This document shows positions 18,398 to 22,723 of a stretch of DNA of 64,000 nt, one piece after another (the first letter of the stretch is position 1; each line of letters starts with the position of its first letter). The stretch is from Corallococcus soli (GTDB taxonomy: Bacteria > Myxococcota > Myxococcia > Myxococcales > Myxococcaceae), in the NCBI RefSeq assembly GCF_014930455.1, contig NZ_JAAIYO010000003.1:620001-684000 (forward strand). The letters are read 5' to 3'. The notes below the pieces were generated by a model. It did not search any database. It was not told where the DNA came from and was given only the letters and a program-made list of their open reading frames with translations. The position numbers and the translations under genes were made by a program.

Positions 18398-19174
18398 ATG
18401 CACGGCCACGCCGATACCGACCACCACGCGCGCATCCCCCACGCCACCCGCATCGAGCGCTCCCGCGTGCTGGTGGTGGGGGCGGGCGGTCTGGGCTGTC
18501 CGGCGTCGCTGGCGTTGGCGCAGGGCGGCGTGGGCCACCTGACCCTGGTGGATCCGGACCGGGTGGACGTGACGAACCTGCACCGCCAGCTCTGGCACCG
18601 CGCCGGGGACGTGGGCCGCTTCAAGGCCGAGTCCGCCGCCGCCGGCCTGCTGCGCGCCTTCCCTGCCTTGAGCGTGGAGGCCCTGCCGGAACGGCTGGAC
18701 GCGAACAACGCGGAGGCGCTCTTCCGCGCGCACGACCTGGTCGTGGACGCCACGGACGGGGTGGCCACCAAGTTCTTCCTGTCGGACGCGGCGGTGCTCA
18801 CCGGCGTGCCCCTGGTGTACGGCGGCGTGCTGCGCATGCAGGGGCAGGCCCTGCGCATCGACCCGGGCGGGCCGTGCCTGCGCTGCCTCTATGAGGACGT
18901 GCCCGCGGCGGACGCGGTGCCCACCTGCGCGCAGGCGGGCGTGCTGGGCTCGATGGCGGGGCTCATCGGCGCGGTGCAGGCGCTGCTCGCGCTGGAGCTG
19001 CTGGCGGGCGCGGCCGGCCGGACGCGGGGCGAGGCGACGCTGCACGTGCTCGATGGCGCGACGCTGGAGGGGCGCACGGTGAAGGTGACGCGCGCGCCGG
19101 ACTGCCCGGGGTGCGGCATCCAGTCGCTGCCCCCGTTCCCCTCGTCCCAGGAGGACACCGCATGCCCGACGTGA
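18398..19174 (+). CDS. ThiF/MoeB/HesA-type E1-like adenylyltransferase (complete ATP site)
   Basis: A 258-residue E1-like enzyme. It has the nucleotide loop GAGGLG (residues 28-33), VDPDRVDVTNLHRQ (Asp52, Asp54, Arg63, Gln64), Lys76, and the Asp pair in VDATDG (117, 120). Zinc pairs are C160xxC163 and C236xxC239, and the Cys177 region is TCAQAGVLG. All adenylation residues are present. Unusually it begins almost directly with the Rossmann strand: the N-terminal arm with the RYxRQ motif of MoeB/ThiF is missing. No rhodanese domain is attached. It overlaps the following tusA-like gene by 13 bases and heads a five-gene sulfur-carrier operon. It should adenylate the C-terminal Gly of the adjacent ThiS-like protein. 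Confidence 0.9.
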   Translation: MHGHADTDHHARIPHATRIERSRVLVVGAGGLGCPASLALAQGGVGHLTLVDPDRVDVTNLHRQLWHRAGDVGRFKAESAAAGLLRAFPALSVEALPERLDANNAEALFRAHDLVVDATDGVATKFFLSDAAVLTGVPLVYGGVLRMQGQALRIDPGGPCLRCLYEDVPAADAVPTCAQAGVLGSMAGLIGAVQALLALELLAGAAGRTRGEATLHVLDGATLEGRTVKVTRAPDCPGCGIQSLPPFPSSQEDTACPT

Positions 19175-19401
19175 CGGCGACGTTGGACATCACCCGTGAG
19201 GTGTGTCCGATGACCTACGTGCGCACGAAGTTGAAGCTGGAGTCGCTGCCCCCTGGCACGTTGCTGGAGGTGCTGCTCAAGGGCGAGGAGCCCCTGAAGA
19301 ACGTACCCCGGAGCGCGCGCGACGAGGGCCACGAGGTGGTGGCGCTGGAGCCGCGCGGCGATGGGACCCACAGGTTGCTGGTGCGAAAGCACGGGACGTG
19401 A
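19162..19401 (+). CDS. TusA-like sulfurtransferase
   Basis: A 79-residue TusA-family protein: LDITREVCPMTYVRTKLKLE with the active-site Cys15-Pro16, then a two-layer alpha/beta pattern with LPPGTLLEVLL and a C-terminal strand. TusA-type proteins accept persulfide sulfur on this Cys and hand it to a partner. The ATG at 19162 has AGGAGG 7 bases upstream and lies inside the end of the E1-like gene, giving tight coupling. In this setting it is the likely sulfur donor to the activated carrier, replacing the rhodanese domain found on many MoeB/MoeZ proteins; that role is inferred. Confidence 0.9.
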   Translation: MPDVTATLDITREVCPMTYVRTKLKLESLPPGTLLEVLLKGEEPLKNVPRSARDEGHEVVALEPRGDGTHRLLVRKHGT

Positions 19402-19403
19402 AC

Positions 19404-19676
19404 ATGGCCACGATTCGCATTCCCACCCCCATGCGCACCCTGACGCGCAACCAGTCCGAGGTGCAGGCCTCGGGCAGCACCGTGGGCGAGGTGCTGCGCG
19501 ACCTGGACGCGCGCTACCCCGGCATGGGTGCCCGGGTCTTCGACGAGCGCGGGGCGGTGCGCCGCTACGTGAACGTCTTCCTCAACGAGGAGGACGTGCG
19601 CGCGCTCCAGTCGCTGGAGACGCCGGTGAAGGACACGGACCGGCTCTCCCTCATCCCCGCCATGGCGGGAGGCTGA
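19404..19676 (+). CDS. MoaD/ThiS-family ubiquitin-fold sulfur carrier protein
   Basis: A 90-residue beta-grasp protein: MATIRIPTPMRTLT strand 1, VGEVLRDLDARYPGM helix, RYVNVFLNEEDVRAL strand and loop, and an exposed C-terminal Gly-Gly (LIPAMAGG, residues 89-90). It ends exactly at GG, so no processing is needed before activation. This is closest in style to CysO/MoaD-like carriers of amino-acid or cofactor sulfur pathways. It starts two bases after the tusA-like stop and is followed by a degenerate E1 and a JAMM hydrolase. The C-terminal Gly would be adenylated and converted to a thiocarboxylate. Confidence 0.92.
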   Translation: MATIRIPTPMRTLTRNQSEVQASGSTVGEVLRDLDARYPGMGARVFDERGAVRRYVNVFLNEEDVRALQSLETPVKDTDRLSLIPAMAGG

Positions 19677-19683
19677 GCGCGGC

Positions 19684-20310
19684 ATGGCGCTGCGCGAGGA
19701 TCAGATTCTCCGCTACTCCCGGCAGATCCTCCTGCGCGACGTAGGAGGGCGCGGCCAGGAGGCCCTGCTGTCGGGCGGCGCGCGCGTGGACGGGCTGGGC
19801 GCGTCCGGCCTCACCGCGACGGCGTACCTGGCGGCGGGCGGAACGCCGGTGACGGGCGTGGGCGGACTGACGATGGGGCCCTGGTCGCCGGGCTTCCTGG
19901 CCTCCGCGCGGGACGTGGGCCGGCCGGTGGCGGACGTGCTGGCCCAGGTGGTGCCGGAGGTGAACCCGGACGCGGTGGGCACGCCCGGCGGCGGCCTGCT
20001 CGCGGAGCTCCCCGCCGCGTGGAGCGGCGAGGCGCCCTGGGTCGCGCTGGGTGGTGACGGCCTGCGGGGCGCGGTGGTGTTCCGGAGCGCGGACGGGTGC
20101 GTCTGGTGCTTCGGGGAGACGGTGCGCCACCTGGGGACGCCGCCGGATGGCCCCCTGGGCGTGGCGCTGGGGGCGTTGGGCGCGCTGGTGTTCCAGCGGC
20201 TGCGCCTGGGGATGGGCCCGTCGCTGGGCGGCCGGTGGCTGGGCGCGCCAGGCGCGGTGGAGGAACTGGAGCCGCGCCGGTGCTCCCGCTGCGGTGCCGG
20301 GAAGCCCTGA
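19684..20310 (+). CDS. Degenerate MoeB/HesA-like E1 paralogue lacking the ATP-binding site
   Basis: The first 30 residues (LREDQILRYSRQILLRDVGGRGQEALL) match the N-terminal arm of MoeB very well. The nucleotide loop is then broken (GLGASG instead of GxGGxG), the DxD/NLxRQ, Lys and catalytic Cys segments are missing, and the protein is only 208 residues. Two zinc-type Cys pairs survive (C139xxC142 and C200xxC203), so the fold is probably kept. The frame is continuous with normal codon bias, which argues against a recent pseudogene. It follows the ubiquitin-fold carrier by 7 bases and precedes the JAMM gene by 7. It likely acts as the inactive partner of the complete E1 at 18398. Confidence 0.8.
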   Translation: MALREDQILRYSRQILLRDVGGRGQEALLSGGARVDGLGASGLTATAYLAAGGTPVTGVGGLTMGPWSPGFLASARDVGRPVADVLAQVVPEVNPDAVGTPGGGLLAELPAAWSGEAPWVALGGDGLRGAVVFRSADGCVWCFGETVRHLGTPPDGPLGVALGALGALVFQRLRLGMGPSLGGRWLGAPGAVEELEPRRCSRCGAGKP

Positions 20311-20317
20311 GCCCTCC

Positions 20318-20782
20318 GTGAGCGGCCCCGCCTTCCCGCCGGAGGTCGTCGCCCGGATGATCCACCACCTGGAGGCCGCCTGGCCCCAGGAGGGCTGCGG
20401 CGTGATCCTCCAGGGGGCCGGTGGGGCAGGGGAGGAAGGTGCCTTCCGCGTCGTGCCGCTGCCCAACGTCGCGCCCACCCCCCGCGTCGCCTACGCCTTC
20501 GCCCCGGACGCGTGGCTCCAGGTCTGCCTGGAGGCGGACGCCCGGCGGGAAACGCTGGTCTGCGTCTTCCACTCACACGTCGACACCGCCGCCACCTTCT
20601 CCGCCGAGGACCGCCGGAGGGCTGCCCCGGCTGGCATCCCACTCTTGCCGTGCGTGTCGTATGAGGTGATCGCCATTCATGGAGGAAGGGCGACCTCCGC
20701 GGCCCGGTTTGTTTGGAGGGACGGCGATTTTCAGGGTGTTCCGATCCGCCTGCCGGATTTCAGGTTTGAAAAACCCTTGTAA
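20318..20782 (+). CDS. JAMM/MPN+ metallopeptidase (Mec-like)
   Basis: A 154-residue single-domain MPN+ protein. The zinc motif is complete: Glu25 (EGCGVIL), His85 and His87 (FHSHVDTAATFSAED), Ser95 and Asp98, giving the HxHx7Sx2D pattern. Small bacterial JAMM proteins next to ThiS/MoaD-like carriers cleave the bond after the C-terminal Gly-Gly; in Mycobacterium Mec releases cysteine from CysO-Cys. Start chosen as the GTG at 20318, 7 bases after the preceding stop; an internal ATG at 20357 would drop the N-terminal helix. It is the last gene of the five-gene operon. Confidence 0.9.
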   Translation: MSGPAFPPEVVARMIHHLEAAWPQEGCGVILQGAGGAGEEGAFRVVPLPNVAPTPRVAYAFAPDAWLQVCLEADARRETLVCVFHSHVDTAATFSAEDRRRAAPAGIPLLPCVSYEVIAIHGGRATSAARFVWRDGDFQGVPIRLPDFRFEKPL

Positions 20783-20939: not shown

Positions 20940-21725
20940 ATGGCCCCCAACACTGGCTTTACCCTCTGGCTGACCGGCATGTCCGGGACCGGAAAGAGCA
21001 CCACGGCTGCCTACATCGCGGCCCGCCTCCGGCAGGTCGGGCGCAACGTGGAGATCCTCGACGAGGGCGATCTCCAGAACGACCTGTGGGCTGGCATCGG
21101 CGATTCCAAGGATGAGCGCAACACGGTGGTCCGCCGTCTGGGCTTCGTGGCCAACCTGCTGAGCCGCAATGGCGTGGCGGCGCTGGTTCCCTGCGTGAGC
21201 CCCTACAAGGCGAGCCGCGAGGAGGTGCGCCGCATGGTGGGCAAGTACGTGGAGGTCTACGTCGACTGCCCCACGGAGAAGCTCATCGAGCGGGACACCA
21301 CCGGCCGCTACAAGAAGGCGCTCAACGGTGAGATCCCGAACTTCATCGGCATCACGGAACCGTACGAGCCGCCCAACTCGCCGGAGGTCACCATCTACTC
21401 CGACACGGAGTCGGTGGAGGAAGGCGCCGCGAAGATCTTCCAGGCGCTCCTGGACCTCGGCCTGATGTCCACGGACGAGCTGAAGACGATCACCGGCAAG
21501 AAGATGAAGGCCAACCCGCTGCCCAAGAAGGCCCGCCGCGACGAGGACGAAGAGGATCCTCCGGTTCGCATGGTGGGTGCCAAGGGCGCCAAGACGGCGA
21601 AGGTGGCGGCCCCCAAGGCGGACAAGGGCTCCAAGGGCGCCAAGGCGCGTCCGGCCACCCGCGCCGCCCGCGTGGGCAAGCCGGCCCCGGCCGCGAAGAA
21701 GGCCGCCAAGCGCAAGGCGAAGTAG
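20940..21725 (+). CDS. cysC: Adenylylsulfate kinase (APS kinase) with lysine/alanine-rich histone-like tail
   Basis: Residues 5-175 are an APS kinase: Walker A GMSGTGKSTT (13-22), ILDEGDLQ, SPYKASR, the RDTTGRYKKALNGEI lid loop and GITEPYEPPNSPEV. It phosphorylates APS to PAPS in sulfate activation. Some signature residues differ (DEGD rather than DGD; RDTTGRY rather than RDPKGLY), so substrate choice deserves testing. From about residue 186 a 75-residue tail begins, with an acidic DEDEED patch and then Lys/Ala/Pro repeats resembling histone H1 or AlgP tails. It has its own strong promoter. A sulfur-related island surrounds it. The Shine-Dalgarno GGGAG is 11 bases from the ATG. Confidence 0.88.
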   Translation: MAPNTGFTLWLTGMSGTGKSTTAAYIAARLRQVGRNVEILDEGDLQNDLWAGIGDSKDERNTVVRRLGFVANLLSRNGVAALVPCVSPYKASREEVRRMVGKYVEVYVDCPTEKLIERDTTGRYKKALNGEIPNFIGITEPYEPPNSPEVTIYSDTESVEEGAAKIFQALLDLGLMSTDELKTITGKKMKANPLPKKARRDEDEEDPPVRMVGAKGAKTAKVAAPKADKGSKGAKARPATRAARVGKPAPAAKKAAKRKAK

Positions 21726-21817
21726 TCGTCGAATCCGTCGTTCTTTCGTGAAGGGGCTCCGGGGTGCGTGCGCGATGCGCGTGCAATCCGGGGCCCTTCC
21801 GTTTTAGGAGTTGCCCC

Positions 21818-22723
21818 ATGCTGAGCCCCGAGCAGATCCAGGCACTGTGTGACGCGTCCCGCCCCAAGCTGGAGGCGATGCGTGAGTCCCTGCGCGCGCA
21901 CGGCAGCGCCCTGGTGGCGTTCTCCGGCGGCGTGGACTCCACCTTCGTCCTCAAGGTCGCGGTGGAGGTGCTGGGCGAGCGCGCCCTGGCCCTCACCGCC
22001 CTGTCCGCCTCCGTCGCCCCGGAGGAGGAGCAGGAGGCGCGCGAGCTGGCGGCCCGGCTGGGTGCCCGGCACGTCGTCGTCTCCAGCAACGAGCTGGCGA
22101 ACCCCAGCTACGCCGCCAACCCCACCAACCGCTGCTACTTCTGCAAGACGGAGCTGTACGACCTCTGCGAGGCGAAGCGCGCGGAGTTGGGTCTGTCGGT
22201 GGTGCTGGACGGCTTCAACGCGGACGACTTCAAGGATCACCGCCCGGGCCACAAGGCGGCGAAGGAGCACAAGGTCGTGTCGCCCCTGGCCCAGGCCGGG
22301 CTCACCAAGGATGAGATCCGCGCCTGGAGCCGCGCGCTGGGGCTGCCCACCTGGGACAAGCCGCAGATGGCGTGCCTGGCGTCGCGCATCCCCTACGGCA
22401 CGTCGGTGACGCGCGACCGGCTGCTGCAGATCGCCGCCGCGGAGTCGGAGCTGCGCACCCTGGGCTTCCGGCAGTTCCGCGTGCGCTACCACCAGGACGT
22501 GGCGCGCATTGAACTGGACGCCGTGGAGTACCCGCGCTTCTTCGAGGCCGCGGTGCGCGAGCGGATCAACGGCGCCTTCAAGTCGCTGGGCTTCAAGTTC
22601 GTGGCGCTGGATCTGGAGCCCTTCCGCTCCGGCCGGCTCAACGAGGCCGCCGGCATCACCCCCACGACCGCCACGGGCGGGCAGGGGAAGCCTGAGGGCT
22701 TCCCGCTCCCGGTGGTGGGGTGA
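21818..22723 (+). CDS. larE: LarE-type ATP-dependent sulfur transferase (PP-loop)
   Basis: A 301-residue N-type ATP pyrophosphatase with the PP-loop SGGVDS (residues 36-41), then TNRCYFCKTELYD (Cys106, Cys109) and the conserved CLASRIPYG segment (Cys186). LarE adenylates the nickel-pincer precursor and inserts sulfur. In the one-Cys enzyme the Cys of the CLASR segment is sacrificed; three-Cys forms are reported to hold a [4Fe-4S] cluster that supplies sulfur catalytically. This protein has the three-Cys pattern. Start at 21818 with TAGGAG 7 bases upstream. No larA, larB or larC is present in the window. It follows cysC by about 90 bases. Confidence 0.93.
   Translation: MLSPEQIQALCDASRPKLEAMRESLRAHGSALVAFSGGVDSTFVLKVAVEVLGERALALTALSASVAPEEEQEARELAARLGARHVVVSSNELANPSYAANPTNRCYFCKTELYDLCEAKRAELGLSVVLDGFNADDFKDHRPGHKAAKEHKVVSPLAQAGLTKDEIRAWSRALGLPTWDKPQMACLASRIPYGTSVTRDRLLQIAAAESELRTLGFRQFRVRYHQDVARIELDAVEYPRFFEAAVRERINGAFKSLGFKFVALDLEPFRSGRLNEAAGITPTTATGGQGKPEGFPLPVVG

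Follow-up and report, generated by a model that had tools for sequence, protein, structure and literature searches.

A 64,000-nt stretch of the Corallococcus soli genome (contig NZ_JAAIYO010000003.1, positions 620,001 to 684,000; the whole stretch is called the window below) carries an operon for two E1-like proteins, P0001 and P0003, which are probably the two halves of an asymmetric, SAE1/SAE2-like heterodimeric E1 for a sulfur carrier. Judged from their sequences, each protein has lost what the other retains: the N-terminal arm is gone from P0001, which still has the catalytic centre, and the catalytic centre is gone from P0003, which still has the arm. The pairing persists across lineages. 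The MoeB and ThiF dimers have an arm Arg (Arg14 and Arg11, respectively) that extends from one subunit to the adenosine triphosphate (ATP) of the other (PMC13139853), and Arg18 of Uba4 reaches ATP from the second subunit in the same way (PMC7527816). P0003 would occupy the place of the second subunit in a MoeB-type dimer, and its Arg13 would extend into P0001's ATP pocket, the arm thereby acting in trans. Because the two tasks are split over two genes, the dimer would have one active site, as in SAE and NAE, and this site would adenylate the Gly-Gly end of the carrier encoded at 19404 (P0002). TusA would then supply the sulfur, giving a carrier thiocarboxylate, and the JAMM protein would free what the carrier delivered. 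For many relatives, the probable acceptor is the cysteine synthase of the same operon, as in a CysO/CysM/Mec-like route.

P0001 (258 residues) matches PF00899 with 212.6 bits over profile positions 16-237, and its alignment to E. coli MoeB begins only at MoeB residue 29, which is why the arm is scored as missing. It retains the nucleotide loop, NLHRQ, DATDG, two CxxC pairs and TCAQAG. A missed upstream start codon was ruled out, since there is no in-frame ATG, GTG or TTG before the upstream stop and the upstream frame itself encodes no arm. Across 33 operon E1 relatives of P0001, the counterparts of MoeB R73, K86 and D130 do not vary, and no RYxRQ arm was found upstream of the nucleotide loop in the relatives that are readable to their start (L013 begins within the gene, and an E1 could not be read in L047 or L050). 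Neither a Cys domain nor a ubiquitin-fold domain was found in P0001, whose sole Pfam match above the cut-off is ThiF (residues 17-237). The Pfam profile search gave no rhodanese match in P0001, the operon having a TusA gene instead, and no insert relative to MoeB was seen in the alignment or the Pfam match. Some ThiF subfamilies lack the arm.

P0003 (208 residues) matches PF00899 with 22.0 bits, under the cut-off of 28.1, and aligns with MoeB residues 4-113 (E 2e-8), with Arg13 on MoeB Arg14. Its nucleotide loop reads GLGASG, the MoeB NLQRQ motif is unmatched and the catalytic Cys is absent, and both CxxC pairs (CVWC and CSRC) are present. The first-pass annotation, made from the sequence of the window, had described P0001 as complete in its adenylation residues and devoid of an RYxRQ arm, and P0003 as carrying a perfect RYSRQ arm, with Arg13 at the position of MoeB Arg14, and both CxxC pairs beside a broken nucleotide loop, with neither NLxRQ nor a catalytic Cys; this description holds for both proteins. 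The structural model of P0003 (predicted local distance difference test 73, predicted template modelling score 0.75) has MoeB as its best match in the PDB (Z 15.6, 194 residues aligned, root-mean-square deviation 3.4), followed by ThiF, SAE1 and APPBP1 (Z 14-15; 14.3 for both SAE1 and APPBP1; Foldseek was also run), a match that is not independent of the E1s of the same fold included in the input alignment of the model. P0003 is thus predicted still to fold as an E1 adenylation domain, minus the catalytic residues.

The gene for the degenerate E1 is under purifying selection in the operon relatives. Over 30 loci of the window's family, the ratio of nonsynonymous to synonymous variation (pN/pS) is 0.26 for the degenerate E1 versus 0.30 for the catalytic E1, and it falls to 0.14 (0.047/0.344) for codons 1-32 of the degenerate gene. 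P0003 as a pseudogene was rejected on this value of 0.26. Among 40 partners (degenerate E1s of relatives) selected for having the arm, R13, G21, G24, Q25 and G53 are invariant at a mean column identity of 32%. Over all sets, in which partners were detected with arm-leaning profiles, the arm Arg is retained in 83 of 85. The equivalents of MoeB R73, K86 and D130 occur all together in none of the 85, two of the three occur in eight (the automatic alignment may misplace short partners), and the Asn of NLxRQ is retained in one. The catalytic half of the degenerate E1 is very variable and has shrunk in several lineages, as would be expected if P0003 were a decaying duplicate retained by chance; we regard this as highly improbable, given a pN/pS slightly below that of the catalytic E1, the near-constant arm Arg and the presence of the protein in several phyla.

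Several forms of the partner were recorded alongside. Three of the 40 arm-selected partners have only 88 (L070), 94 (L073) and 123 residues, and degenerate E1s eroded to about 90 residues with the arm retained lie at L070 4847-5110, L073 3815-4096 and L133 9021-9296. The degenerate E1 shares one open frame with the JAMM peptidase in L045 (6100-7236) and L067 (2799-4358), and with MoaD in L158 (3306-4277), L166 (2839-4083) and L167 (4689-5813); in the MoaD frames the carrier Gly-Gly runs into the arm domain, so that a free carrier would require cleavage. At four partner matches (G061, G062, G064 and G093) a flagged TGA was rejected as a disruption and is taken to be the end of the gene itself, because the frames of L039, L038, L071 and L040 stay open all the way between the arm and the C-terminal Cys motif.

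We then compared the presence of the partner with the state of the E1. P0003 matches occur in 144 of 195 genomes of the phylum (E<=0.001), a count that includes ordinary MoeB arms, and 40 fetched regions were annotated jointly with 30 loci from this search. Because these loci had been found through the arm-bearing protein, a scan was made with the E1 alignment only, the arm excluded, over one genome per species (84,980 species). It gave at least 558 relatives, and in the best 80 loci 11 E1s are armless and 69 are armed. Each of the 11 armless E1s is matched by a degenerate partner with an arm: eight in the locus, one fused (L111) and two elsewhere in the genome, of which that of L095 lies about 8 kb away, on the same contig judging by length and coordinates, and that of L092 at the end of another contig, the L092 E1 itself being close to a contig end. 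None of the 69 armed E1s in these 80 loci has a partner in its locus. A second set of 60 loci, hand-picked from 140 E1 matches (E<=1e-30) in 106 further genomes of the phylum, contains 31 armless E1s, 28 armed E1s (L210 and L213 were recoded as armed by eye) and one unclear case (L182). A partner accompanies 28 of the 30 assessable armless E1s (L189, counted in the 31, is cut by a contig end) and none of the 28 armed ones; six of the 28 partner-bearing loci (L163, L172, L173, L178, L180 and L195) had already shown a P0003 match beside the E1 in the P0003 search of the phylum.

These counts also bear on the identity of the enzyme that P0003 would serve. Other E1-like proteins are encoded elsewhere in the window's genome, and one of them (L001), which also matches the arm region, is taken from its sequence to be the ordinary armed MoeB. 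Such a MoeB is thus at hand as a partner for the degenerate protein in place of P0001. It has no need of a further arm, however, the degenerate gene shares its operon with the armless E1, and none of the 69 loci with armed E1s (best 80 of at least 558) holds a degenerate gene, so that this pairing is hardly credible.

In the tree of E1s, the partner-bearing armless E1s form one large region plus Acetobacterium. A further, smaller tree groups the armed L190 with 20 armless E1s in a starred clade (99). The operon of L190 is of this kind too; its E1 is armed, its locus holds no partner, and its position shows that arm and partner state vary together inside the clade too. On the origin of the degenerate E1, 14 rows of this smaller tree fall on one side of a branch with a support of only 59, where long branches meet. 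A coupled loss is seen in two genomes of one genus (L044 in G094 and L051 in G096), where the partner lacks the arm and the E1 lacks NLxRQ, the DxTD motif and the Cys; TusA was not found at these two loci, and the frames of MoaD, JAMM, APS kinase and LarE are still open. Both armless partners among the 85 are those that adjoin these two E1s. Two other genomes of the genus, G095 and G097, have one E1 match each (E<=1e-30), and the fetched E1 of G095 (L214) is armed.

Several points weigh against an asymmetric pair, or against its generality. Two armless E1s in the hand-picked set have no partner. L181 (3998-5047, in G014) stands with MoaD, a cysteine synthase, JAMM and APS kinase, and a search of the G014 genome with the partner alignment gave only an armed MoeB-like protein and marginal matches; L209 lies on a long branch and has no operon. 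The 69 armed E1s were checked at the locus, and the genome-wide partner search covered L092, L095, G014 and a few others. The cases from Planctomycetota (L092), Nitrospinota (L115) and FCPU426 (L095) are one metagenome-assembled genome each. A sign test on independent pairs had two starred contrasts (same direction 1.9, no difference 0.1 on average), too few for any significance, and the conservation of the arm among partners is partly built in by their detection. Finally, PMC13139853 reports that MoeB and ThiF do not need the arm Arg for catalysis and that TcdA lacks it, which makes a catalytic need for it less sure. The arm may instead serve assembly or stability, by analogy with Tcd1 and Tcd2.

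Some of these points lend weight to P0001 working alone, as a monomer or an armless homodimer, with P0003 as a scaffold or regulator that uses its E1-like surface to gather the carrier, TusA and JAMM or to block the active site. An Arg that MoeB and ThiF can spare and TcdA lacks (PMC13139853), an armless E1 such as L181 whose partner was not found in its genome, and the fusions of degenerate E1s to JAMM (L045 and L067) and MoaD (L158, L166 and L167) would all fit. On the other side, the part of P0003 that persists while the rest erodes is the very arm that acts at the other subunit's ATP site in known E1s, and partner presence tracks the loss of the E1 arm in two groups that are separated in the tree; we therefore consider this alternative improbable. 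The heterodimer remains the better reading, with a correction to the first-pass annotation, which had called the two proteins obligate partners: the comparative evidence is for a complementary, arm-donating pair, and "obligate" goes beyond it, given L181 and the Arg that MoeB and ThiF can spare. That annotation had also proposed co-conservation across Myxococcota as a check, which the 28 of 30 armless and 0 of 28 armed E1s bear out, and had named a complete enzyme found with its carrier and without the degenerate protein as a refuting case, of which L181 is an instance beside the 28 accompanied E1s.

In the Acetobacterium family the pair takes a one-chain form. This protein, about 640 residues long and matching over its full length in 9 of 40 genomes of the family, consists of NifU_N, an armed degenerate E1 and an armless active E1 (L111 6798-8714, plus L223-L231). 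The arm of the degenerate half reads RYLRQ or RYLRH in the three proteins looked at, and two of the nine have a stop flagged in the aligned stretch, yet their open frames run to 640-650 residues. The L111 gene sits among genes of cysteine and methionine metabolism (Cys_Met_Meta_PP, PALP and homoserine O-succinyltransferase). The active half is nested among armed E1s, apart from the myxobacterial group (starred branch, 99), and the one-chain asymmetry is apparently of separate origin from the two-gene pair. With its inactive half ahead of the active one, as in UBA1 or BilD, the fusion seems to be a bacterial equivalent of that layout, minus the Cys domain. In a model of L111 residues 150-638, block means are mostly 80-98 in the active half and 28-73 in the degenerate half. 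Over model residues 6-470, three UBA6 chains give 299-310 aligned residues at Z about 25, where the active half alone gives about 220-230 aligned residues, a hint of a UBA6-like arrangement that is too weak to count.

The substrate was assessed from the carriers and the neighbouring genes. All 45 MoaDs found in partner-bearing loci end their carrier domain in Gly-Gly, and in the window the carrier gene lies between those for TusA and P0003 in one tight operon, which fits the first-pass proposal that the pair serves this carrier. For the family as a whole the proposal is less secure: 45 of 90 rows with partner-bearing armless E1s have no MoaD match within the stretch examined, a number that includes the nine Acetobacterium fusion loci and some stretches that end at contig ends. 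In G161, assembled as one contig, the pair occurs with TusA, APS kinase and LarE, and the single ThiS-family match (E<=0.01) lies far from the operon. It is thus conceivable, though rather unlikely, that the asymmetric E1 is real and acts on a substrate that is not a MoaD-like carrier, or not solely one; the MoaD-less rows and G161 fit this, the arrangement in the window and the 45 of 45 Gly-Gly ends do not, and the structural part of our preferred explanation is compatible with it. The TusA C-terminus as the E1 substrate was ruled out, as it has no conserved Gly-Gly. We also noted loci, L046, L052, L062 and L163 among them, with E1, TusA, degenerate E1, APS kinase and LarE and no MoaD found nearby. 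In other lineages MoaD, JAMM or both were not found in the locus, and E1, TusA and the degenerate E1 remain together.

The genes of the window operon are listed in the table; they lie on the forward strand with tight spacing in the order armless E1, TusA-like protein, carrier, degenerate E1 and JAMM, followed by APS kinase and LarE, and the E1 and TusA genes share 13 bases where they meet. The span 18398-20782 covered by the first-pass annotation also holds the TusA and JAMM genes, which it did not name. The pair does not stand alone and belongs to a TusA/JAMM cluster, joined in many relatives by a cysteine synthase between the degenerate E1 and JAMM. Three of these synthases were tested, and their closest NCBIfam model is cysM, with scores under its cut-off. 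The synthase in the relatives' operons points to a CysO/CysM/Mec-like route; it is absent from the operon in the window and in its lineage, and the window's genome (G000) has three matches elsewhere, at 34-37% identity. APS kinase and LarE (20940-22723 in the window) adjoin the pair in many operons of the phylum without a clear reason.

Features of the operon, in window coordinates
Feature	Position	Strand	Basis
P0001, putative catalytic subunit: ThiF/MoeB-type E1 with adenylation residues, without N-terminal arm	18398..19174	+	PF00899, MoeB alignment
P0005, TusA-like sulfur-transfer protein, Cys retained in VCPMTYV	19162..19401	+	PF01206, 70.8 bits
P0002, MoaD/SAMP1-type ubiquitin-fold carrier with C-terminal Gly-Gly	19404..19676	+	NF041918, 63.1 bits (cut-off 60)
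P0003, degenerate E1 (pseudo-E1), proposed arm-donating partner subunit	19684..20310	+	sequence, MoeB alignment, predicted fold
P0003 N-terminal arm, residues 1-32 (RYSRQ, then GGRGQ), best-conserved part of the family	19684..19779	+	
P0003 Arg13 codon, matching E. coli MoeB Arg14	19720..19722	+	
P0006, JAMM/JAB peptidase, HSH-x7-S-x2-D and upstream Glu	20318..20782	+	PF14464, 70.8 bits; motif from sequence
P0004, APS kinase with Lys/Ala-rich tail, conserved neighbour	20940..21725	+	
P0007, LarE-type sacrificial sulfur transferase, conserved neighbour	21818..22723	+	TIGR00268, 319.6 bits

Taken together, these data allow a broader proposal, which we put forward tentatively and at somewhat less than even chances. 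A eukaryotic-style asymmetric E1 may have arisen at least twice independently among bacterial sulfur-carrier E1s, in two-gene form (Myxococcota, Planctomycetota, Nitrospinota and FCPU426) and in single-chain form (Acetobacterium). The dead half of some lineages would have eroded to an arm donor of about 90 residues that completes the active site of another enzyme, and the MoaD-less lineages would have moved to another substrate. The ubiquitin-type E1s of our own cells show a similar split into an armless working half and an armed dead half, seemingly reached here in a myxobacterium and in relatives from several phyla. The two-gene bacterial pair, its armed single-gene relatives as controls and the natural fusion would offer a direct test of why E1s become asymmetric, and such a small pair would also show whether an arm acting in trans is catalytic or purely structural.

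Asymmetric E1s are already known from eukaryotes and bacterial Bil systems, and the gene content of operons of this kind was described in 2006 (PMC1779556). In the literature searched, outside which most subscription papers fall, we recognised neither a degenerate partner of a bacterial sulfur-carrier E1 nor a two-gene asymmetric one; the available parts of PMC12687455 and PMC12355090 treat the sulfur-carrier E1s of bacteria as homodimers and assign asymmetry to the eukaryotic enzymes. Operon types 4c and 4e of Iyer 2006 combine a MoaD-like carrier, an E1 without rhodanese, SirA/TusA, JAB and APS kinase. The window operon resembles row 4e in its carrier, JAB, rhodanese-less E1 and SirA/TusA, with APS kinase as its sole sulfate-assimilation gene, and it differs by the second, degenerate E1, which the available text on types 4c and 4e does not mention (PMC1779556).

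BilD of the bacterial Bil system joins an inactive and an active adenylation half and a Cys domain in one chain for protein conjugation (PMC11354881). The present system would likewise be a bacterial E1 with one half of each kind; unlike BilD, it is spread over two genes, except for the single chain of Acetobacterium, and P0001 showed no Cys domain. In yeast, the inactive ThiF-type partner Tcd1 lends an Arg finger to the active Tcd2 and is needed for its stability (PMC13139853). P0003 would give P0001 an Arg finger in a similar way, whereas Tcd1-Tcd2 is eukaryotic and acts on transfer RNA, and its Arg is described as not essential in the same text.

With MoeB-MoaD and ThiF-ThiS, the system shares the fold, the adenylation residues in one chain (P0001), the zinc CxxC pairs and a Gly-Gly carrier. 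It differs in having two genes, each retaining what the other has lost, so that P0001 has no arm in its own chain. The CysO-CysM-Mec pathway makes cysteine with a Gly-Gly carrier, a JAMM peptidase, a linked cysteine synthase and a rhodanese-fused E1 (MoeZ). The window operon matches it in having the Gly-Gly-ended carrier and the JAMM peptidase beside the E1, and the operons of many relatives add the cysteine synthase; in the window, however, the E1 has a TusA gene in place of a fused rhodanese, and the operon lacks the synthase. In SAE and NAE, the dead adenylation half keeps the arm and the active half has none of its own, and these E1s carry a catalytic Cys domain and a C-terminal ubiquitin-fold domain. 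Neither domain was found in P0001, the pair stands in a sulfur-metabolism operon and the dead half is reduced to about 90 residues in some relatives. By sequence, P0003 and P0001 nonetheless repeat the division seen in SAE1-SAE2 and APPBP1(NAE1)-UBA3, an inactive armed half beside an active armless half, and the P0003 model matches SAE1 and APPBP1 alike with Z 14.3.

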